Positions 564 through 10,286 of a stretch of 64,000 nucleotides of DNA are shown here, piece after piece (within the stretch, counting starts at the first letter, position 1; each line of letters begins with the position of its first letter). The notes beneath the pieces are model-generated. The model saw only the letters and a program-made list of their open reading frames with translations. It was not told the origin of the DNA and ran no database searches. The stretch spans positions 1 through 64,000 of the forward strand of contig NZ_NBXD01000008.1 in NCBI RefSeq assembly GCF_003399645.1. Reading direction: 5' to 3'. Source of the stretch: Subtercola boreus (lineage in GTDB: Bacteria; Actinomycetota; Actinomycetes; Actinomycetales; Microbacteriaceae). The position numbers were made by a program, and so were the translations under genes.

Positions 564-2285
564 TCAGAGACCGCGGGCGATGGATGCGGCAGCCGCCAGC
601 CAGGCACGTCGGGTCGCCGGCTGCAACGCGCTGTGCAGGATGCGCCCGGCCTTCAGCGCGGGGTCGAAGGGCACGATGACCACGTCGCGCACGTAAGGCC
701 TGAAGTCCTCGGCCATGCGCTCGGAGATGTTGCGCTCCTTCGGCTGCCATTCGGAGATGATGACGACGGCGTTCTTCGCGAGTTCTGCGGCCTTCTCGCT
801 GCGGCTCTGCACAGCCTGCAGGGTGAGCAGAGCGGCCTGGGCGCGGTCCTCCATCGTCGTGGTGGGGACGACGAGCTGGTCGGTGTGGTCGATCATGCGC
901 AACCAGTTCTCGGCGCGGTCGCTGTTGCCGGAGTCCATCAGGATCAATCGGTAGTACTTGGCGGCGATGCTGTGCACGATGTCGACCTCTTCGGCCGTCA
1001 TCTCGTGCGTACCGCTGGGATCTTCGTCCGAGCGCAGAACGTCGAACTTATCGGCCTGCTGGTGGTGCACGAAGCGCGACATCTGGCCGAACTCGGCGCG
1101 GGCGTCGAGGAGGTCGTCGGCGTTCGCGAGCACATCGAGCACGGTCGACCCGTGGTCGCCCTGTTCGGTGCGCCAGCCGAGCGTGCCCATAGTCTCGTTG
1201 TTGTCCCAGGCGAGCACACCGCCGCCCCCGCTTCGGGCGAATGCCGCAGCGAGGTTGGCAACTGTGGGGGTCTTGTTGGCTCCACCCTTGCGGTTGATCA
1301 CGCTGATGGTGCGGTGGGCCGGGAAGTGGCGGGAGATCTCTTCGATGTCGCCGCGCTGCGACTGTTCACCGCGCCCCGGCTTGAGCCGCAGGCCGAAGTG
1401 GTTCATGAACCCCTTGAACCCCTGCTCGGCGGGCTCGTCGAGTTTCGGAAGAGCCAGAAACGAGGGTGCGTCGAGCAGATCGCGACGTGAACCCGCCAGG
1501 GCGGCCGAGGACTCTGGGGCGGCTGTCGTCGAGCGAGGGGCCTTGACGGCTGACGAGGTGGGTGAGGGGGGAGTGGGCATGGAAGGCTCTGATCGTTGTG
1601 ACGGCAGCGTTGCCACTGGGGGAACGGATGCACGGGAAGGGGTCGGTGCGAACGGCGTCGCGGTCGGCATGGGGGAGGGCAGGGGAACGGAGTAGAGCGA
1701 GGGCTCGAGACGGGCGGAGACGGGGGCGGTGGTGACGGGTTCGTCGTCGTCACCCTCGTCTGCCACGGCGAGGGGCTCGGCGGGAGGTTCTACGCTCTGG
1801 TCGTCGGGGAGCTCTGCGGCAGCGTCGTCCGGCTCGTCGTCCGGCGCGTCCTCGGCAAGAGGCTCTTCCTCGTCGACCACTGGCAGATCGACAACCACGA
1901 GCCGCTCGACCAGAGCCGGCCCTCCGACAGCGACGGGCGCATCCCCGGGAACAGGAGCGTCGTCGTCGACGGGCGCCTCATCGTCCGGCGGCCACGGTTG
2001 CCCCATTTCCTCGAAGGGAATGAAGCTCTCCTCCTCGATCGAACCGTCGACCCCGGCGAGCAGGATGCTCATGCCGGTCTCGGCCGTGACGGTCACCCGC
2101 ACCGGCCGACCGATGCGCTCGGCCTCGGCCTGGATGAGGCCGACCAGCTCCTGCAGGGCCGACCCGGGAGAGTCTGCGGAGATGTGCTGCACCTCGTCGT
2201 CTACCCGCAGTACACCGGAGTTGTCGCCGCGGAGAGACGCCGTTATGCGTGGAAGGTCGAGCACCCGACTCTTGTCGATTGCCAT
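564..2285 (-). CDS. ParA/MinD-like ATPase with long acidic linker and deviant P-loop
   Basis: 573 residues from the ATG at 2285, which is preceded by an AGGCGGGG ribosome-binding site; a TTG at 2309 is an alternative start. There is a conserved-looking N-terminal domain (about 1-95), then a long Asp/Glu/Pro-rich linker (about 95-270), then a P-loop ATPase domain from about 320 to the end. The P-loop reads NRKGGANKTPT (near 332-342) where ParA/MinD proteins normally have KGGxGKTT, so Asn replaces the second conserved Gly. A Walker-B-like LILMDSGNSD follows. The family works in DNA, plasmid or complex positioning, but the cargo here is unknown. No ParB or parS is visible beside it. It could be a membrane- or septum-associated Mrp/MinD relative rather than a partition protein. 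Confidence 0.75.
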   Translation of the reverse strand: MAIDKSRVLDLPRITASLRGDNSGVLRVDDEVQHISADSPGSALQELVGLIQAEAERIGRPVRVTVTAETGMSILLAGVDGSIEEESFIPFEEMGQPWPPDDEAPVDDDAPVPGDAPVAVGGPALVERLVVVDLPVVDEEEPLAEDAPDDEPDDAAAELPDDQSVEPPAEPLAVADEGDDDEPVTTAPVSARLEPSLYSVPLPSPMPTATPFAPTPSRASVPPVATLPSQRSEPSMPTPPSPTSSAVKAPRSTTAAPESSAALAGSRRDLLDAPSFLALPKLDEPAEQGFKGFMNHFGLRLKPGRGEQSQRGDIEEISRHFPAHRTISVINRKGGANKTPTVANLAAAFARSGGGGVLAWDNNETMGTLGWRTEQGDHGSTVLDVLANADDLLDARAEFGQMSRFVHHQQADKFDVLRSDEDPSGTHEMTAEEVDIVHSIAAKYYRLILMDSGNSDRAENWLRMIDHTDQLVVPTTTMEDRAQAALLTLQAVQSRSEKAAELAKNAVVIISEWQPKERNISERMAEDFRPYVRDVVIVPFDPALKAGRILHSALQPATRRAWLAAAASIARGL

Positions 2286-2357
2286 ATCTGCACCCCGCCT
2301 TTGATCCAATGAAACAAGACAACTCGTCTCATCTTAAATGAGGGTGAAGTTTTATCC

Positions 2358-3726: not shown

Positions 3727-3867
3727 ATGAGTGCAACAGATTCCGACCCCTTCCACGATTTCACCGTTCCGCAGGACGCCGACATGGTCTCTGCACCGAC
3801 GCCGAACAGCGCCGACGATGAGGCCGAATCGACGACCGACGACGACCCCCTGGGCTCCGACGACTGA
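3727..3867 (+). CDS. Very small acidic hypothetical protein (46 aa)
   Basis: Starts MSATDSDPFHDFTVPQDADM and ends DDDPLGSDD. It is acidic and lacks Cys, Lys and Arg almost completely, so it is probably disordered. The start is chosen because a TAGCGT box lies 7 nt upstream; the frame is open further upstream only as antisense of the MDR gene. Its composition resembles the acidic protein at 2358-2633, but I see no clear homology. Function unknown. Confidence 0.5.
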   Translation: MSATDSDPFHDFTVPQDADMVSAPTPNSADDEAESTTDDDPLGSDD

Positions 3868-3937
3868 TACTGGCGGCGTCCGCACCCGCGCTCCCGCCGG
3901 GCCCTGTCAAGGGCTGGCGATGTTGCGGTGGTATTCT

Positions 3938-3951
3938 TCGAACGAATTCGA
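3938..3951. promoter_or_regulatory. Small inverted repeat upstream of the recombinase-like gene
   Basis: TCGAA-CGAA-TTCGA, a perfect 5-bp inverted repeat about 50 bp before the ATG at 4000. It could be a binding site, perhaps for the recombinase-like protein itself. It is too short to be sure. Confidence 0.25.
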
Positions 3952-3999: not shown

Positions 4000-4668
4000 A
4001 TGGCTGAGGTCGGCTACATCTGGGTTGGTCCACTCGAGCACAACGGCGACTACCAACGCGACCTGCTGCGGCAGCGCGGAGTCACCCGCTTCTATGAAGA
4101 TGTCAGTGGCAATTCGGTCACCCCGACGCGGTCCGAGCTCACGGTGGCCCTCGACGAGATCGGTCGCGGCGACACACTCGTCACTTGGCGACTCGACCGC
4201 CTGGCCAGCACCCTGCCGCAGGTGCTCTCGCTGCTCGAACTGCTCGGAACCAAGGGCGTGGGTGTGCATTCGCTCACTGAGAAACTCGACACCTCCGGCC
4301 CCGACGGCGCCGCACTGCTGACGGTAATCCACGCGTTCACCGAGCTCGATCGAACTCTCACGCGTGAGCGAACCATGGTGGGCGTCTATGCGGCCCGAGC
4401 CCGTGGCCGAGTCGCCGGTCGGCCGCGGGCTCTCTCGTCGACGAACGTCGATCGTGTTCTTCTGCTGCGCGAGCAGGGCGCGTCGGTGCGGGAGATCGCC
4501 CAGCAGCTCGGTACCTCCCGCGCCACGGTCTATCGTGCCCTCGAGTCGCAGAACGACGACGTCTCGGAGTCCAGGGACGCTCCGGATGCCCGCACCTCCC
4601 TCACGCTCACCTTCACGACACCCGGTCTCCCTCCGGCGCCGAGCCTCCCGGGCACACTCGCCGACTAG
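4000..4668 (+). CDS. Resolvase-family protein lacking catalytic residues
   Basis: 222 residues with the layout of a small Tn3-type serine recombinase: resolvase domain (about 1-140), then GRVAGRPRAL and a Hin/resolvase helix-turn-helix with SVREIAQQLGTSRATVYRAL (about 165-183). The DNA-binding half looks intact. Against gamma-delta resolvase, the segment around the nucleophile (YARVS) reads YIWVG. So the catalytic Ser is Gly and the neighbouring Arg is Trp, and the Arg of DRLGR is Ser (DRLAS). Strand exchange is therefore unlikely. The protein may be a sequence-specific DNA-binding or regulatory relic. No transposon ends or partner transposase are visible. It lies directly upstream of the DeoR regulator. 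Confidence 0.8.
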   Translation: MAEVGYIWVGPLEHNGDYQRDLLRQRGVTRFYEDVSGNSVTPTRSELTVALDEIGRGDTLVTWRLDRLASTLPQVLSLLELLGTKGVGVHSLTEKLDTSGPDGAALLTVIHAFTELDRTLTRERTMVGVYAARARGRVAGRPRALSSTNVDRVLLLREQGASVREIAQQLGTSRATVYRALESQNDDVSESRDAPDARTSLTLTFTTPGLPPAPSLPGTLAD

Positions 4669-4676
4669 CGGTGAAA

Positions 4677-4692
4677 TGATCAGAACTGGTCA
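4677..4692 (+). promoter_or_regulatory. Candidate DeoR operator upstream of the regulator gene
   Basis: TGATCAGAACTGGTCA is an imperfect palindrome located 30 bp before the DeoR start. Its first ten bases recur in reverse complement at 5557-5566, before the transporter operon. This sharing suggests autoregulation by the DeoR protein. Confidence 0.5.
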
Positions 4693-4710
4693 TGGAACGG
4701 CTTCTCTTCG

Positions 4711-4716
4711 TATGAT
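4711..4716 (+). promoter_or_regulatory. Leaderless -10 box (TATGAT) of the DeoR gene
   Basis: TATGAT, 6 nt before the GTG at 4723 and just downstream of the candidate operator at 4677-4692, so a bound repressor would block it. Confidence 0.55.
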
Positions 4717-4722
4717 GGCCGG

Positions 4723-5511
4723 GTGCTTGCAGCGCAGCGACGCAATCTGATCCTGGAATTCCTGAGAGCCGACGGGGCCGTCTCCATCAGCTCCCTTGCA
4801 GGGCGCCTCGAGACCTCCGCGGTCACCATCCGACGCGACATCGTCTATCTCGATGCCATCGGGATGCTGACGCGCACCCACGGCGGTGCCGTCGCGGGGC
4901 CGGCTCCCCGTGAGTCGTCGTACGCCGAGAAGATCGGCCAGGCGATGGAGGAGAAGTATGCGATCGGACGACTTGCCGCCACTCTCGTGCACGACGGAGA
5001 CGTGATCATCATCGGCCCGGGAACCACGACTGAGGCCTTCGCCGAGAGCCTGATCGACCGGACGGGTCTCACCGTCATCACGAACTCGCTCCTCGTCGCC
5101 GAGGCATTCGTTCCGGCGGCGGAGAACGAGGTGATCATGACGGGCGGTACCCTGCGGGCCTCCATCCGTGCTTTCGTGGGCGAGTCGACCAACCGCACCC
5201 TCCGCACCATCCACGCCGACAAGACCTTCGTCTCGGGTAACGGACTGGTCGCAGACTTCGGGCTGTCGACGCCGAACATGTCGGTCGCCGACTCCGACCG
5301 TGCCATGGCTGCGGCCGCCCACGAGGTCGTCGCGCTGGTCGACCACACCAAGTTTGGGGTGCGCACCGCTGTGCAGACCATCGCCACCGAGCAGATCACG
5401 CACCTCGTCACCGACTCGAAGACCCCCGCCGCCCAACTGGCGGCCTTCGCCGGCCACGGCATCGCACTGCATGTCGCACAACCCGGTGCTGGACTTTTGG
5501 ACACGATTTAG
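4723..5511 (+). CDS. DeoR/GlpR-family sugar-responsive transcriptional regulator
   Basis: 262 residues starting at GTG 4723. The N-terminal winged HTH contains SISSLAGRLETSAVTIRRDI and the family motif RTHGGAV (near residue 52-58). The C-terminal DeoR sensor domain has IIGPGTTTEAFAESL, ITNSLLVAEAF and VSGNGLVADFGLSTPN, and it normally binds a phosphorylated sugar. It directly precedes a sugar ABC-transporter operon and shares operator-like sequences with it. The natural reading is a repressor of that operon, relieved by a sugar phosphate. The inducer is unknown; the PfkB kinase at 11851 could generate it. Confidence 0.92.
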   Translation: MLAAQRRNLILEFLRADGAVSISSLAGRLETSAVTIRRDIVYLDAIGMLTRTHGGAVAGPAPRESSYAEKIGQAMEEKYAIGRLAATLVHDGDVIIIGPGTTTEAFAESLIDRTGLTVITNSLLVAEAFVPAAENEVIMTGGTLRASIRAFVGESTNRTLRTIHADKTFVSGNGLVADFGLSTPNMSVADSDRAMAAAAHEVVALVDHTKFGVRTAVQTIATEQITHLVTDSKTPAAQLAAFAGHGIALHVAQPGAGLLDTI

Positions 5512-5530
5512 CAACAATGCTTGAAGATCG

Positions 5531-5566
5531 CTTTCAGTTCTGAAAGAAATTGCTATGTTCTGATCA
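5531..5566 (+). promoter_or_regulatory. Operator/promoter region of the sugar ABC operon
   Basis: Two operator-like elements lie side by side. CTTTCAGTTCTGAAAG (5531-5546) is a near-perfect palindrome with 7-bp arms. TGCTATGTTCTGATCA (5551-5566) has the reverse complement TGATCAGAACATAGCA, matching the first ten bases of the site at 4677. A possible -10, TATGTT, overlaps the second site (5554-5559), which fits repression by DeoR. Confidence 0.5.
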
Positions 5567-5630
5567 TCTGGGGTCTGCATCATCCGCTCTCCAGACGATC
5601 TGCACCCACACCAACAAGGAAGTTGACCTC

Positions 5631-6710
5631 ATGAAAATGAACCGTAAGGGGCGTGCTCTCTTCTCCGCAGCAGCGTGCGCAGCAGCCGTCGGCCTGGCGC
5701 TGACCGGCTGCACGAACACCGGTACCTCCACCGCCGCCGATACGACGTCGGCCACCGAGGCCGCCCAGACCGCCGCTCCCGTCTCCGGCCCCACCTGCTC
5801 GCTGGCCGACTACAAGGGCGAGAAGATCGACCTGACGCAGGCGACCGTCGGCTTCTCGCAGTCCGAGAAGGAAGACAACCCGTTCCGCATCGCCGAGACC
5901 CAGTCGATCACCGACGAAGCCGCGAAGATCGGCGTCAAGAAGTTCATCAAGACGAACGCCCAGTCGACGCTGTCGAAGCAGATTTCCGACATCAACGACC
6001 TCATCTCCCAGGGCGCCCAGATCCTGATCGTCGCGCCGCTGAACTCCGACGGGCTGGAGCCCGCGCTGAAGGCTGCGCGTGACAAGAACATCCCGGTCAT
6101 CACCATCGACCGCAAGCTGAACGCCACGGCCTGCACCGACTACGTCTCGTTCCTCGGCTCGAACTTCGTCGAGCAGGGCAAGCGCGCGGCCGACCAGCTC
6201 ATCGCGGGCACCGGTGGCACGGCCAAGGTCGCCGTTCTGCTCGGCTCCTCGGGCAACGGTGTGACCACCGACCGCACCTCCGGCTTCGTCGATGAGATCA
6301 AGGCCGCCGGCCCGAACATCACCGTCGTCGCCCAGCAGACCGGTGACTTCGCCCGCGACAAGGGCCAGTCGGTCACCGAGCAGCTGCTGCAGTCGAACCC
6401 CGACATCACCGCCATCTACGCCGAGAACGACGAAATGGGCCTGGGTGCCCAGGCCGCCATCATCGCGGCGGGCAAGGTGCCCGGCAAAGATATTCAGATC
6501 TACTCGATCGACGGCACCAAGAACGCCGTCGAGCAGATCGTCGCCGGTGCCTACAACGGTGTCATCGAGTCCAATCCCCGCTTCGGTCCACTGGCCTTCT
6601 CGACCATCCAGGACTTCATGAACGGAACGGCCGTCGGCCAGGACATCATCATCCAGGACAGCGAGTACGATCCCGCCAACGCCCAGGCGAAGGTCGGCTC
6701 GGCCTTCTGA
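5631..6710 (+). CDS. Sugar ABC transporter substrate-binding lipoprotein (YtfQ-like)
   Basis: 359 residues. The ATG at 5631 follows an AAGGAAG ribosome-binding site. The signal peptide ends in the lipobox LTGC (Cys27), then a Ser/Thr/Ala linker. The mature part is a periplasmic-binding-protein type I fold: VGFSQSEKEDNPFRIAET, LIVAPLNSDGLEPALKAA, IPVITIDRKLNA, GDFARDKG, AIYAENDEMGLGAQAAI and YSIDGTKNAVEQI. These positions resemble YtfQ, the galactofuranose-binding protein, more than the ribose binder RbsB. It should capture a sugar at the outer face of the membrane for the permease pair downstream. First gene of a four-gene transport operon. Confidence 0.9.
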   Translation: MKMNRKGRALFSAAACAAAVGLALTGCTNTGTSTAADTTSATEAAQTAAPVSGPTCSLADYKGEKIDLTQATVGFSQSEKEDNPFRIAETQSITDEAAKIGVKKFIKTNAQSTLSKQISDINDLISQGAQILIVAPLNSDGLEPALKAARDKNIPVITIDRKLNATACTDYVSFLGSNFVEQGKRAADQLIAGTGGTAKVAVLLGSSGNGVTTDRTSGFVDEIKAAGPNITVVAQQTGDFARDKGQSVTEQLLQSNPDITAIYAENDEMGLGAQAAIIAAGKVPGKDIQIYSIDGTKNAVEQIVAGAYNGVIESNPRFGPLAFSTIQDFMNGTAVGQDIIIQDSEYDPANAQAKVGSAF

Positions 6711-6799: not shown

Positions 6800-8326
6800 A
6801 TGACGGATGCCGGCACAGCCGTGCTCGAGGCCCGCGACGTGACCAAGCGGTTCGCGGGCGTCACCGCGCTCAGCGGCGTGAACTTCGTGCTCCGGCCCGG
6901 CGAGAGCATGGCCCTGATGGGCGAGAACGGCGCCGGCAAGTCGACGCTGATCAAGGTGCTCACCGGGGTCTACCAGCCCGACGAGGGTGACCTGCTGCTC
7001 GCGGGGTCGAAGGCGACCTTCGCAAGGCCGCTCGATGCGCAGAAAGCGGGCGTCAGCACGATCTACCAAGAGGTGAACCTGGTGCCGCTGATGTCGGTCG
7101 CCCAGAACATCTACCTCGGCCGGGAGCCCCGCGGGCGGCTCGGTCTCATCGACTTCCGCCGCATGTACGCCGAGGCGCGAGCCCTGCTCTCGGAGTACGG
7201 CATCCAGGTGGATGTGCGGCGGCCCCTCCGCACGCTGGCGCTCGGTGTGCAGCAGATGGTGGCACTCGCACGAGCCGTCAGCATCAACGCCAACGTCGTC
7301 ATCATGGACGAACCGACCTCCTCGCTCGAGGCCCGGGAGGTCGAGACGCTGTTCCGGGTGATCGGCCTGCTGCGGGAACGCGGCATTGCGATCATCTACG
7401 TCTCACACCGGATGGACGAGATCTACCGCGTCTGCGAGACCGTCACCGTGCTGCGCGACGGGCACGTCGTGCACGTCGGCCGCCTCGACGACCTGCCGCG
7501 CGTCGAGCTGGTGTCGAAGATGCTCGGCCGTTCGGTCGAGAAGGTCGAGCGCGGCGGTGTCACGGCATTCCGGGCCGCGAACGAGAGCGACGCGCCACCG
7601 GTGCTCGTCGCCACCGACCTCAGCCGCAAGCACCAGATCGACGGCATCAGCATCTCGATCCGCCCGGGGGAGGTCGTCGGGCTCGGCGGATTGCTCGGCT
7701 CCGGTCGTTCCGAGACGCTCAAGGGGCTTTCGGGCGTGATGCAGCTCGACCGCGGCGGCGTGAAGATCGACGGAAAGAGTGTTCGGAGCGGTTCGGTGCC
7801 GGCGGCCATCCGGGCAGGAATCGTGATGCTGCCCGAGGACCGCAAGAGCGAGGGCATCGTGCCGAACCTCTCCGTGCGCGACAACATCGTGCTCGCGGCA
7901 CTGCCGAAACTCTCGAAGGCCGGCTTCACCTCACGCCGCAAGCAGGATGCTGTGGTCGATGTCTTCATCAAAAGGCTCCACATCAAGGTATCGAGCCCCG
8001 ACCAGATCGTCTCGGAGCTCTCGGGCGGCAACCAGCAGAAAGTGATGATCGCCCGCTGGCTGGCCATGACGCCGAAGGTGCTGCTGCTCGACGAACCCAC
8101 CCGCGGCATCGACGTCGGAGCGAAGGCCGAGGTCCAGTCGCTCATCGACGAGCTCGCCCACGAAGGGCTGGCGATCGTGCTGGTGTCGAGCGAGGTCGAA
8201 GAGGTCGTCGAAGGCTCTGCGCGGGTGATCGTGCTGCGCGACGGATCGATCGAGACCGAGCTGCGCGGTGACCAGGTCGACGAGAACGCGCTGCTGGCAG
8301 CGCTGGCCGGCGGGAGTGCATCATGA
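6800..8326 (+). CDS. Sugar ABC transporter ATPase with two ABC domains (YtfR/RbsA-like)
   Basis: 508 residues with tandem ATPase modules. The first has Walker A GENGAGKST (41-49) and Walker B VVIMDEPTSSLEAREV. The second has a degenerate Walker A region (GLGGLLGSGRSETL), an intact signature LSGGNQQKVMIARWL and Walker B VLLLDEPTRGIDVGAK. This asymmetry is normal for RbsA/MglA/YtfR-type ATPases of the CUT2 sugar-transport class. It powers the two permeases encoded next and overlaps the first by 4 bp (ATGA). Confidence 0.95.
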   Translation: MTDAGTAVLEARDVTKRFAGVTALSGVNFVLRPGESMALMGENGAGKSTLIKVLTGVYQPDEGDLLLAGSKATFARPLDAQKAGVSTIYQEVNLVPLMSVAQNIYLGREPRGRLGLIDFRRMYAEARALLSEYGIQVDVRRPLRTLALGVQQMVALARAVSINANVVIMDEPTSSLEAREVETLFRVIGLLRERGIAIIYVSHRMDEIYRVCETVTVLRDGHVVHVGRLDDLPRVELVSKMLGRSVEKVERGGVTAFRAANESDAPPVLVATDLSRKHQIDGISISIRPGEVVGLGGLLGSGRSETLKGLSGVMQLDRGGVKIDGKSVRSGSVPAAIRAGIVMLPEDRKSEGIVPNLSVRDNIVLAALPKLSKAGFTSRRKQDAVVDVFIKRLHIKVSSPDQIVSELSGGNQQKVMIARWLAMTPKVLLLDEPTRGIDVGAKAEVQSLIDELAHEGLAIVLVSSEVEEVVEGSARVIVLRDGSIETELRGDQVDENALLAALAGGSAS

Positions 8327-9291
8327 CGCAGGCCACTGTCTCTGTCTCGGTACCGAGCCGCGGTTCGGTACTCGCCGTCTTCCAGAAGTACGGGGTGTAC
8401 TTCGCCATCGTGCTGCTGCTGGCCTACAACCTCGTCGCAACGCCCAACTTCTTTGCGATCGACAACTTCCGCACGCAGTTCGTGCAGGTCGTGCCGGTTC
8501 TCATCGTGGCGCTCGGCATGGCGCTCGTGATCGGAACCGAAGGCATCGACCTCTCGGTCGGCGCGGTGATGGCACTCGCCGCCGCCGTCATACCTCTCTA
8601 TGTGGGGTACGGGCTGGTACCGACCCTGCTCATCGCCATCCTCGTGGGTGCGGTGATCGGTGCCCTGAACGGGTCGATGGTCGCCTTCATCGGGGTCCAG
8701 CCGATCGTGGCGACCCTGGCGGTGATGGTCGCCGGGCGGGGGCTCGCCCTGTTGATCGCGAACGAGCAGTTGAAGTCGGTGACGAACCCCCAGATCCTGG
8801 CGCTCGGGCGGGACTCGGTGCTCGGGGTGCCGTACAGCGTGCTGATCGCAGCCGTACTCGTCGGGGCCGTCGCCATCCTCGTCAATCGCACGACCTTCGG
8901 AAAACAGCTGATCGCGATCGGTGGCAGTCGGCGGGCCGCCGAGCTCGCGGGGTTGCCGGTCAAGCGCATCCTGCTGCTGGTCTACGTGCTGGCGGCTGCG
9001 CTCGCCGCCGTCGCGGGGGTGATCGGTACCGCCCGGCTGGGCGCATCCGTTCCCTCCACGCTCGGCAACCTCATCGAGCTGTCGGCCATCACGGCCGTCG
9101 TCGTCGGCGGAACCCCGCTGAGCGGCGGCCAGGTGAAGGTGCTCGGCACGCTCGCCGGAGCCCTGCTGCTGCAGTTCATCAGCGCCACACTCATCAAGCA
9201 CAACGTTCCCGACGCGTACTCGCAGGTGGCGCAGGCGATCATCATCCTGGTCGCCGTCTACATCCAGCGCGGAAAGGCCCGAGTCAAATGA
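8323..9291 (+). CDS. Sugar ABC transporter permease (YtfT-like)
   Basis: 322 residues, about nine hydrophobic segments. Contains the CUT2 permease signatures MALVIGTEGIDLSVGAVMAL and ITAVVVGGTPLSGGQVKVLGTL. Starts in a 4-bp ATGA overlap with the ATPase gene and ends in another with the second permease. A pair of different permeases following an RbsA-like ATPase is the arrangement of the ytfT-yjfF type, so the two probably form a heterodimeric channel. Confidence 0.92.
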   Translation: MTQATVSVSVPSRGSVLAVFQKYGVYFAIVLLLAYNLVATPNFFAIDNFRTQFVQVVPVLIVALGMALVIGTEGIDLSVGAVMALAAAVIPLYVGYGLVPTLLIAILVGAVIGALNGSMVAFIGVQPIVATLAVMVAGRGLALLIANEQLKSVTNPQILALGRDSVLGVPYSVLIAAVLVGAVAILVNRTTFGKQLIAIGGSRRAAELAGLPVKRILLLVYVLAAALAAVAGVIGTARLGASVPSTLGNLIELSAITAVVVGGTPLSGGQVKVLGTLAGALLLQFISATLIKHNVPDAYSQVAQAIIILVAVYIQRGKARVK

Positions 9292-10286
9292 CCACCACCT
9301 TCGAACCGGCGGCAGGCCCCGCCACCGACAGCCAGGTGGGCCGCGAACGCCTCGCCAGTCTTCTGCAGAGCTACGGTGCGGCGATCGTGCTCGTCATCCT
9401 GCTCATCGTGGGCAGCATCGCCTTTCCGACATTCGCGACGGGCAGCAACTTCTCGAACATCCTGACGCAGTCGTCATTCCTGCTGATCGTGGGTGCGGGT
9501 ATGACGTTCGTGATCCTCACCGGCGGCATCGACCTCTCGGTGGGGTCGGTCTTCGCCCTCGGCGGGGTGCTCGCGGCCTACGGGTCGTCGTTCGGGCTGC
9601 TCGGGGCGCTCCTCTTCCCCCTTGTCGTCTGCGGTGCGATAGGCGCGCTTCAGGGCTTTCTCATCGCCCATGCGGGCATGGCGCCGTTCATCGTGACCCT
9701 CGCCGGGCTGCTGGGCGTGCGCGGTCTCGTGCTCGCCACGACCGACGGGGGTTCGGCGACGCCGCTGATCACCGACCCGGTGGTGGTGGCGCTCGGCCAG
9801 GGACAGGTGCTGGGCATCCACTGGCCGGTGCTCATCGCGATCGTCGTGATCGTGCTCGGATCGGTGCTGCTGGCGCGCACGCGCGGTGGTCAGTCGGTGT
9901 ACGCCGTGGGAGGGTCGGAGAGTGCCTCGACGCTCATGGGTCTGCCCGTGGCGCGCGTGAAGTTCACGGTCTACGTGCTGTCGGGGCTCTGCGCGGGGCT
10001 CGCGGGGGCGCTCAACGCGGCGTACTCCTCGTCGGGCGTGCCGACCGTGGGCGTCGGGCTCGAACTGAACGCGATCTCGGCGGTGGTGATCGGCGGCACG
10101 CTGCTGGTCGGCGGTCGCGGAAACCTCGTGGGTACCGTGGCGGGCGTGCTGCTGCTCAGCGTCATCCAGAACCTCATCAACCAGGTCGGCTCGCTGTCTT
10201 CGTCGGTGCAGGCAGTGGTGTCGGGGGCGTTCCTGGCGATCGTGGTGATCATCCAGACGGTGCTGTCGCGCACGCAGCGCCTCTAG
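9288..10286 (+). CDS. Second sugar ABC transporter permease (YjfF-like)
   Basis: 332 residues from the ATG at 9288, which overlaps the stop of the first permease. Hydrophobic throughout, with MTFVILTGGIDLSVGSVFAL and ISAVVIGGTLLVGGRGNLVGT, the same signatures as its neighbour, so they are paralogues. Last gene of the operon; a long inverted repeat follows. The frame is open further upstream inside the preceding gene, but that is not used. It completes a CUT2-type importer. Confidence 0.92.
   Translation: MTTTFEPAAGPATDSQVGRERLASLLQSYGAAIVLVILLIVGSIAFPTFATGSNFSNILTQSSFLLIVGAGMTFVILTGGIDLSVGSVFALGGVLAAYGSSFGLLGALLFPLVVCGAIGALQGFLIAHAGMAPFIVTLAGLLGVRGLVLATTDGGSATPLITDPVVVALGQGQVLGIHWPVLIAIVVIVLGSVLLARTRGGQSVYAVGGSESASTLMGLPVARVKFTVYVLSGLCAGLAGALNAAYSSSGVPTVGVGLELNAISAVVIGGTLLVGGRGNLVGTVAGVLLLSVIQNLINQVGSLSSSVQAVVSGAFLAIVVIIQTVLSRTQRL

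Follow-up and report, generated by a model that had tools for sequence, protein, structure and literature searches.

A serine-recombinase homologue that has lost its nucleophile and two catalytic arginines is encoded at the head of a sugar ABC operon in Subtercola boreus. Judging from comparative sequence analysis, this domesticated, catalytically dead recombinase probably controls, as a transcription factor, a regulon for furanose sugars in Microbacteriaceae. The initial annotation of the window (the whole stretch of 64,000 nucleotides analysed here) had suggested a recombinase turned into a DNA-binding regulator. That suggestion, in which DNA binding is predicted, has gained from our analysis: the losses are conserved, the protein is under selection, the ABC operon follows it at all 14 loci compared, and a 29-bp element, M2, is shared between this operon and the gene of a glycoside hydrolase (GH2). 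The features of the locus are given in Table 1.

Table 1. Features of the dead-recombinase locus in the window
Feature	Position	Strand	Remarks
Candidate extended -10 of the dead gene, TGgTATTCT	3929..3937	+	Found by eye; absent from the promoter-scan list
Inverted repeat TCGAACGAATTCGA	3938..3951		Present in the window
Dead serine-recombinase homologue, 222 aa	4000..4668	+	ATG start, intact ORF; proposed regulator
M1, palindrome TGATCA-N4-TGGTCA between the dead gene and DeoR	4677..4692		Overlaps the DeoR promoter
Promoter-like TGGTCA-18-TATGAT of the DeoR gene	4687..4716	+	Promoter scan
DeoR-family regulator (DeoRC + HTH_DeoR)	4723..5511	+	In 12/14 loci
M2, conserved 29-bp element TGGACTTTTGGACACGATTTAGCAACAAT upstream of the transporter	5490..5518	+	Proposed operator of the dead recombinase
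M3, stretch after M2	5519..5575	+	Inverted-repeat-like in single sequences
Leader/RBS ACAAGGAAGTTG	5614..5625	+	Identical before transporter and GH2 in five genomes
Sugar-binding protein, YtfQ-like	5631..6710	+	NCBIfam 6e-52, below equivalog cut-off
ABC ATPase, YtfR-like	6800..8326	+	NCBIfam 1.6e-169, below cut-off
Permease 1, RbsC/YtfT-like (nearest RbsC)	8323..9291	+	NCBIfam, below cut-off
Permease 2, YjfF-like	9303..10286	+	NCBIfam 4.4e-66, below cut-off; start codon approximate

A recombinase fold without its catalytic residues

The dead protein matches the Pfam families Resolvase (E = 1.3e-24) and HTH_7 (E = 3.5e-12). A Resolvase domain with a C-terminal HTH_7 places it in the serine-recombinase superfamily, by homology only. 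Among solved structures, the top sequence match is the Gin invertase (2e-28). In this alignment YVRVS of Gin faces YIWVG and DRLGR faces DRLAS. Arg8 is thus replaced by Trp, Ser10 by Gly and Arg71 by Ser, in what we take to be gamma-delta numbering. Ser10 is presumably the nucleophile, and we take Arg8 and Arg71 to lie at the scissile phosphate. With Gly at position 10, the protein is without the nucleophilic serine that an active invertase or resolvase needs. Tyr6, Arg44, Asp66, Arg67, Arg122, Arg124 and the HTH are all kept. The alignment therefore bears out the three substitutions read from the sequence in the initial annotation, and its description of a well-preserved HTH agrees with both the alignment and the HTH_7 match.

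The resolvase-like domain (residues ca 1-102) is followed by the long helix E (103-134), a GRPRALS arm (140-146), the HTH (ca 147-188) and a disordered tail. The AlphaFold2 model, computed from a 20-row alignment, shows the resolvase fold, the long helix E and the HTH with a mean pLDDT of 79.9 and a pTM of 0.53; residues 188-222 mostly have a pLDDT below 50. Search for structural similarities using Foldseek placed Tn3 and gamma-delta resolvases at the top and Gin entries lower, the two listed for Gin being 36-38% identical to the dead protein.

Orthologues and their distribution

In a 37-row tree, 14 orthologues form a single clade with a support of 100/100. The join of this clade to its nearest outside row runs through long branches and is unsure. 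The orthologues are 59-82% identical to the window protein. They are found in 4 of the 12 genomes of the genus and in 12 of 398 Microbacteriaceae genomes, distributed over six genera; Glaciibacter flavus and a Lacisediminihabitans MAG were added to these 12 to give the 14. In the 398-genome search, 14 genomes passed the threshold of 1e-45, and two of them were left out as lying outside the clade: G155, where the motifs are intact, and G199, which keeps DRLGR and has an unreadable N-terminal motif.

The search of the order covered 297 genomes, including some from the same family, and gave no match between the window's own (4.3e-126) and 5.8e-46. Members outside Microbacteriaceae were rejected, as the best other matches in the order, beginning with that at 5.8e-46, keep the catalytic motifs. 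At a threshold of at least 60% identity, no match to the dead recombinase was found in a phage collection, nor from plasmids among the 5000 matches listed.

The gene heads a sugar ABC operon

In all 14 loci, the dead gene is located upstream of, and on the same strand as, a YtfQRT/YjfF-like sugar ABC operon. The gene order is dead recombinase, DeoR, sugar-binding protein, ABC ATPase and two permeases. Using tblastn, the ATPase was recovered at 14/14 loci, DeoR at 12/14 and the sugar-binding protein at 11/14 (it was unrecovered in L039, L044 and L069). On its far side, the dead gene has a neighbour that varies by lineage: an oxidoreductase-like gene in the window and in its two nearest relatives, G001 and G008, the GH2 gene in G003 and other genes elsewhere. 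The link of the dead gene is therefore to the ABC operon. The 12 of 398 Microbacteriaceae genomes that carry the dead gene are also those with an ATPase orthologue (78-100% identity), and no further ATPase match was found among the 398 down to E = 1e-165. The dead gene, the ATPase and the transporter copy of M2 are physically linked and co-inherited, and their shared distribution does not represent 12 independent events. By NCBIfam, the transporter is nearest to the galactofuranose system YtfQ/YtfR/YjfF, with all scores below the equivalog cut-offs.

Upstream of the dead gene, stretches loosely similar to the candidate extended -10 can be seen by eye before several orthologues. The inverted repeat that follows it, TCGAACGAATTCGA, had been put forward as a binding site in the initial annotation. 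The repeat does exist, but it was found in only 1 of the 14 orthologous upstream regions, so that it is probably not a conserved operator.

Two other kinds of genes were noted around the locus. On the minus strand, window positions 564-2309 encode a large ParA/MinD-like protein (Pfam AAA_31, 3.3e-6) with a long acidic, proline-rich N-terminal part, and G001 and G008 also have a ParA/MinD-like gene next to the locus. The interval between the oxidoreductase and the dead gene holds a 46-aa acidic ORF (window 3727-3867, plus strand), which matched no Pfam family. Similar ORFs, with DPFHDFxVPQDAD, can be discerned by eye ahead of the dead gene in the same two genomes.

M2 is shared by the transporter operon and a GH2 gene

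M2, TGGACTTTTGGACACGRTTTNGNAACAAT, appears as a sharply bounded block in the 14-locus comparison. It is present before the transporter in 14/14 loci, with 0-5 mismatches to the window copy. In the window M2 overlaps the last codons of DeoR; in G001, G008 and G150 it lies, by eye, beyond the DeoR stop. Its conservation must therefore have another reason than coding.

When 18 genomes were scanned with up to 3 mismatches allowed, M2 appeared in the 12/12 that carry the dead gene and in 0/6 of the others. Three extra copies turned up in three genera, and all of them precede the same GH2 gene. A weight matrix built from the 14 transporter sites alone located M2 upstream of GH2, on the GH2 strand, in 10 of the dead-gene genomes, at 12.2-54.9 bits; the maximum was 7.4 bits in 53 other loci and at most 1.7 bits at the other 9 GH2 loci scanned. 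The GH2 gene of the window genome is one of the ten (G000 contig 30, L133). The GH2 site of G293 is a weaker M2 with a 1-nt insertion (12.2 bits) and was excluded from the pooled 23-site logo. Across the family, 378 genomes yielded 15 M2 sites (12 transporter, 3 GH2), all in 12 genomes, which are the very ones that carry the dead gene; a reversed M2 control pattern gave 0 among the 378. The shared element before the transporter and GH2 is a candidate repeated operator common to the target promoters, and M2, rather than the inverted repeat upstream of the dead gene, is likely to be the operator. No good M2 was found before the dead gene itself, where second-best matches have at least 8 mismatches; the 8-mismatch match in G003 faces the GH2 gene.

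By eye, M2 can be read as a -35 TGGACT, 17 bp and a -10 AACAAT, and is possibly also a core promoter. The promoter scan, with a threshold of 9, does not list M2, which has 8/12 consensus bases by eye. Conservation is about equal in the hexamers and in the putative spacer between them. In G293, 48 nt separate the end of M2 from the start codon, which leaves little room for another promoter.

M2 sites also hold, by eye, direct-repeat-like TTTnGnACA units, and we dropped the idea of a simple palindrome, for which no clear two-fold symmetry was visible. Serine recombinases usually bind inverted half-sites. That M2 is direct-repeat-like, unlike classic crossover sites, is the weakest point of the model. 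An origin of M2 as an ancestral crossover site was rejected: the four loci scanned near motif-intact relatives, L071, L072, L048 and L049, reach at best 6.3 bits, below the null maximum of 7.4.

M3 looks paired by eye and may form an RNA hairpin, but no consensus structure was found: for 12 sequences, the RNAalifold value was 0.0 and did not improve on that of column shuffles. M3 ends in TTGCTATGTT..TGATC or similar, and the GH2 leader of G123 (L128) has a close copy, TTGCCGTGTTTTGAGCGTTTC. By eye, M3 is missing in the two loci without DeoR. The leader sequence ACAAGGAAGTTG, present once in the whole window, has GH2 copies in L128-L131 and L133 and is nearly identical in G293 too; it could be a further control common to both genes, or no more than a strong RBS.

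The GH2 enzyme and the sugar

The GH2 search covered the 12 dead-gene genomes of the family set and left out Glaciibacter flavus and the Lacisediminihabitans MAG. GH2 was found at 70% identity or more in 9 of them and at 53% in G003. G162 has a 39% match without an M2 site and G062 has none at 1e-60, so that these two genomes carry the dead gene and no M2-bearing GH2. In 20 searched genomes without the dead gene, GH2 matches were found in 2 (37-46% identity), none of them at 70%. The distance between GH2 and the dead gene exceeds 120 kb on the same contig in 5/10 genomes, and the two genes are on different contigs in 4/10. In G003, GH2 is adjacent and divergent to the dead gene.

The solved structure nearest to the GH2 protein of the window genome is a beta-D-galactofuranosidase (9j6n/9j6m, 2.8e-160). 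According to the available part of PMC12243196, this enzyme comes from Streptomyces sp. JHA19 and belongs to subfamily GH2_18, and subfamilies 18 and 19 have alpha-L-arabinofuranosides and beta-D-galactofuranosides as substrates. A GH2 enzyme of the same strain is reported to be galactofuranose-specific in the accessible text of PMC4560423, and a YtfQ-type transporter is also reported for arabinofuranose (PMC10191376). The enzyme and the transporter, as independent sequence matches, thus point to a furanose, either galactofuranose or arabinofuranose. The sugar is probably galactofuranose.

DeoR, M1 and the regulator of M2

Of the 12 loci that have DeoR, 11 carry the M1 pattern TGATCA-N4-TGATCA upstream of this gene with at most 2 mismatches, and G369 carries it with 4, in a count made without a shuffle control. 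M1 was not found between the dead gene and the transporter start in G293 and G062; a 2-mismatch match in G062 lies further inside the operon. Both operons are devoid of DeoR, and the best DeoR matches genome-wide (29-39% identity) include no orthologue. Because G293 and G062 are not sisters in the tree, DeoR has most simply been lost at least twice. Both lineages keep the dead gene and M2. M1 is likely to be the own operator of DeoR, and the simplest reading, by elimination, pairs DeoR with M1 and the dead recombinase with M2. M1-like sites, TGATCG-N4-TGATC(A/G), are also found ca 92 bases before the dead gene in G252, G150 and G204 (L065, L066, L067), which suggests that DeoR controls the dead gene there.

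DeoR proteins are the usual regulators of sugar operons. DeoR could accordingly be the real regulator of M2, with the dead recombinase as a co-factor or an architectural DNA-bridging protein. Its position between the dead gene and the transporter in 12/14 loci would fit, as would the TTTCGGACAGGTTT stretch that, by eye, the DeoR promoter of G150 shares with M2-like sites. We nevertheless regard this as unlikely, since the two DeoR-less lineages keep M2 and the dead gene and since DeoR goes together with another palindrome, M1. M2 could also be bound by a DeoR paralogue or by an unlinked regulator. In the latter case, the dead recombinase would bind DNA in another role, on another target or in DNA topology, and M2 would be read as a promoter or operator by the unlinked regulator. 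The promoter-like reading of M2 and the status of the dead recombinase as a candidate binder only are compatible with this arrangement; the conservation of the M2 spacer and the restriction of M2, among 378 genomes, to the 12 with the dead gene speak against it and make it quite improbable.

Conserved losses and selection

Arg is lost at position 8 in 14/14 orthologues (Trp in 13, Tyr in 1) and at position 71 in 14/14 (Ser in 12, Thr in 2). Position 10 is Gly in 12, including the window protein, Asp in 1 and Ser in 1. Tyr6, Arg44, Asp66 and Arg67 are invariant. In comparison, 25 rows outside the clade, chosen as best-scoring relatives rather than at random and representing 24 places because L005 and L089 are identical, show Y-x-R-V-S in 23 cases, with YAWVS in L087 and an unreadable motif in L063, and keep the Arg of DRxxR in 25/25. 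The substitutions are therefore conserved among close homologues, which are dead at Arg8 and Arg71 within one fully supported clade, whereas relatives with an intact site are at most 46% identical. L087 (G439:C5) combines Arg8 to Trp with intact Ser10 and Arg71.

The orthologue with Ser at position 10 (L069, in G293) is nested among Gly and Asp members. Because Arg8 and Arg71 remain lost there, this serine is perhaps a chance return. Taken with the four invariant residues and with the motif-intact serine-recombinase homologues encoded elsewhere in the genome (L031-L033), it would also suit a protein that has kept recombinase activity, through an unusual active site or through an active partner. 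The loss of Arg8 and Arg71 in 14/14 and of Ser10 in 13/14, together with an orientation relative to the operon that is constant in 14/14, renders this very unlikely.

New residues are fixed near the old active site: W8, P11 and L12 in 13/14 members of the dead clade, E13 and H14 in 14/14. Thr71 and a Ser or Thr at position 70 are also listed as newly fixed in 14/14.

The dN/dS ratio is below 1 in 8/8 pairs, with whole-gene values of 0.015-0.314. Between the window and G001 or G008, it is 0.141/0.129 for the whole gene, 0.041/0.038 for the HTH segment, 0.097/0.079 for the dead catalytic domain and 0.45/0.41 for the tail. The two most distant pairs give 0.30-0.31 for the whole gene and 0.10-0.14 for the HTH, and the tail is close to 1 in two pairs (maximum 1.06). 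These values, domain by domain, show that the dead recombinase is under selection, dead domain included. The check for purifying selection proposed in the initial annotation, which had noted the intact frame, thus speaks for its reading. A decaying pseudogene, which the loss of three catalytic residues might evoke, can be set aside, as the frame is open in 14/14 orthologues, dN/dS is well below 1, and neither neutral evolution nor a broken frame was observed.

Proposed role

The protein combines a recombinase fold, lost catalytic residues and selection, as a recombinase-derived regulator would. In our model, a small serine recombinase of the Gin/Hin/resolvase type would have been captured once in Microbacteriaceae and become a dedicated transcription factor. 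It would have lost the nucleophile and the two arginines gripping the scissile phosphate and kept the fold, helix E, the GRPR arm and the HTH. At the head of a locus for a furanose sugar (probably galactofuranose), the gene would encode a protein that probably binds M2, as a dimer or as paired dimers, before the transporter operon and before GH2, and thereby sets the transcription of both. If M2 is a promoter with an unusually conserved spacer, the bound protein may have a direct effect on RNA polymerase. In the loci that have DeoR, this regulator appears to work through M1, a palindrome of its own. We infer the binding of M2 by the dead recombinase, the promoter-operator nature of M2, the sugar and the sense of the control, activation or repression.

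The near-invariant new residues around the lost site suggest a repurposed pocket, possibly, as a speculation, for a sugar ligand. The former active site might then be a ligand-sensing pocket, making the protein a one-component furanose-sensing transcription factor in which the dimer/tetramer switch inherited from the recombinase controls the M2 promoters. We hold this extension to be doubtful; if true, it would define a new class of bacterial transcription factor.

The predicted furanose-scavenging regulon would comprise a transporter, an enzyme and two regulators. The predicted operator, the regulon and the DeoR-less lineages make the regulator idea directly testable. Such proteins, annotated as 'recombinase family protein', would be overlooked, and other dead clades may hide in databases.

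Comparison with known systems

The dead recombinase resembles Gin/Hin invertases and Tn3/gamma-delta resolvases in its fold, helix E and HTH. Unlike them, it is without the nucleophile and the two catalytic arginines and is fixed beside a metabolic operon. Tn3/gamma-delta resolvases also repress transcription at their sites. On the side of the sugar, the closest relative of the transporter is the galactofuranose transporter YtfQRT/YjfF, whose NCBI equivalog cut-offs are above the observed scores, and that of the GH2 enzyme, as far as the available sources describe it, is the beta-D-galactofuranosidase of Streptomyces sp. JHA19.

A search of the full-text literature, mostly without subscription papers, retrieved no serine-recombinase-derived bacterial transcription factor, and vaccinia F16 was the one inactive serine recombinase found. 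F16 is called a 'predicted inactive serine recombinase' in the accessible part of PMC11980589, and is thus another catalytically inactive homologue; it differs as a poxvirus protein targeted to nucleoli, for which that part of the article reports no link to an operon or an operator. In the text available from a review on the recruitment of mobile elements (PMC8987985), serine recombinases are dealt with as active enzymes.

Recombinase folds as regulators are already known from the tyrosine family. As presented in the available text of PMC10516654, MrpR, the master repressor of prophage SPbeta, has a tyrosine-recombinase fold that has lost its recombinase function to become a repressor. It is the closest functional analogue of the dead recombinase from what this text describes: a recombinase fold with largely lost catalytic residues, which represses a repeated element by binding DNA. 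The two differ in that MrpR has the tyrosine fold and controls a prophage, whereas the dead recombinase has, according to Foldseek, the serine-resolvase fold and belongs to a host sugar locus.
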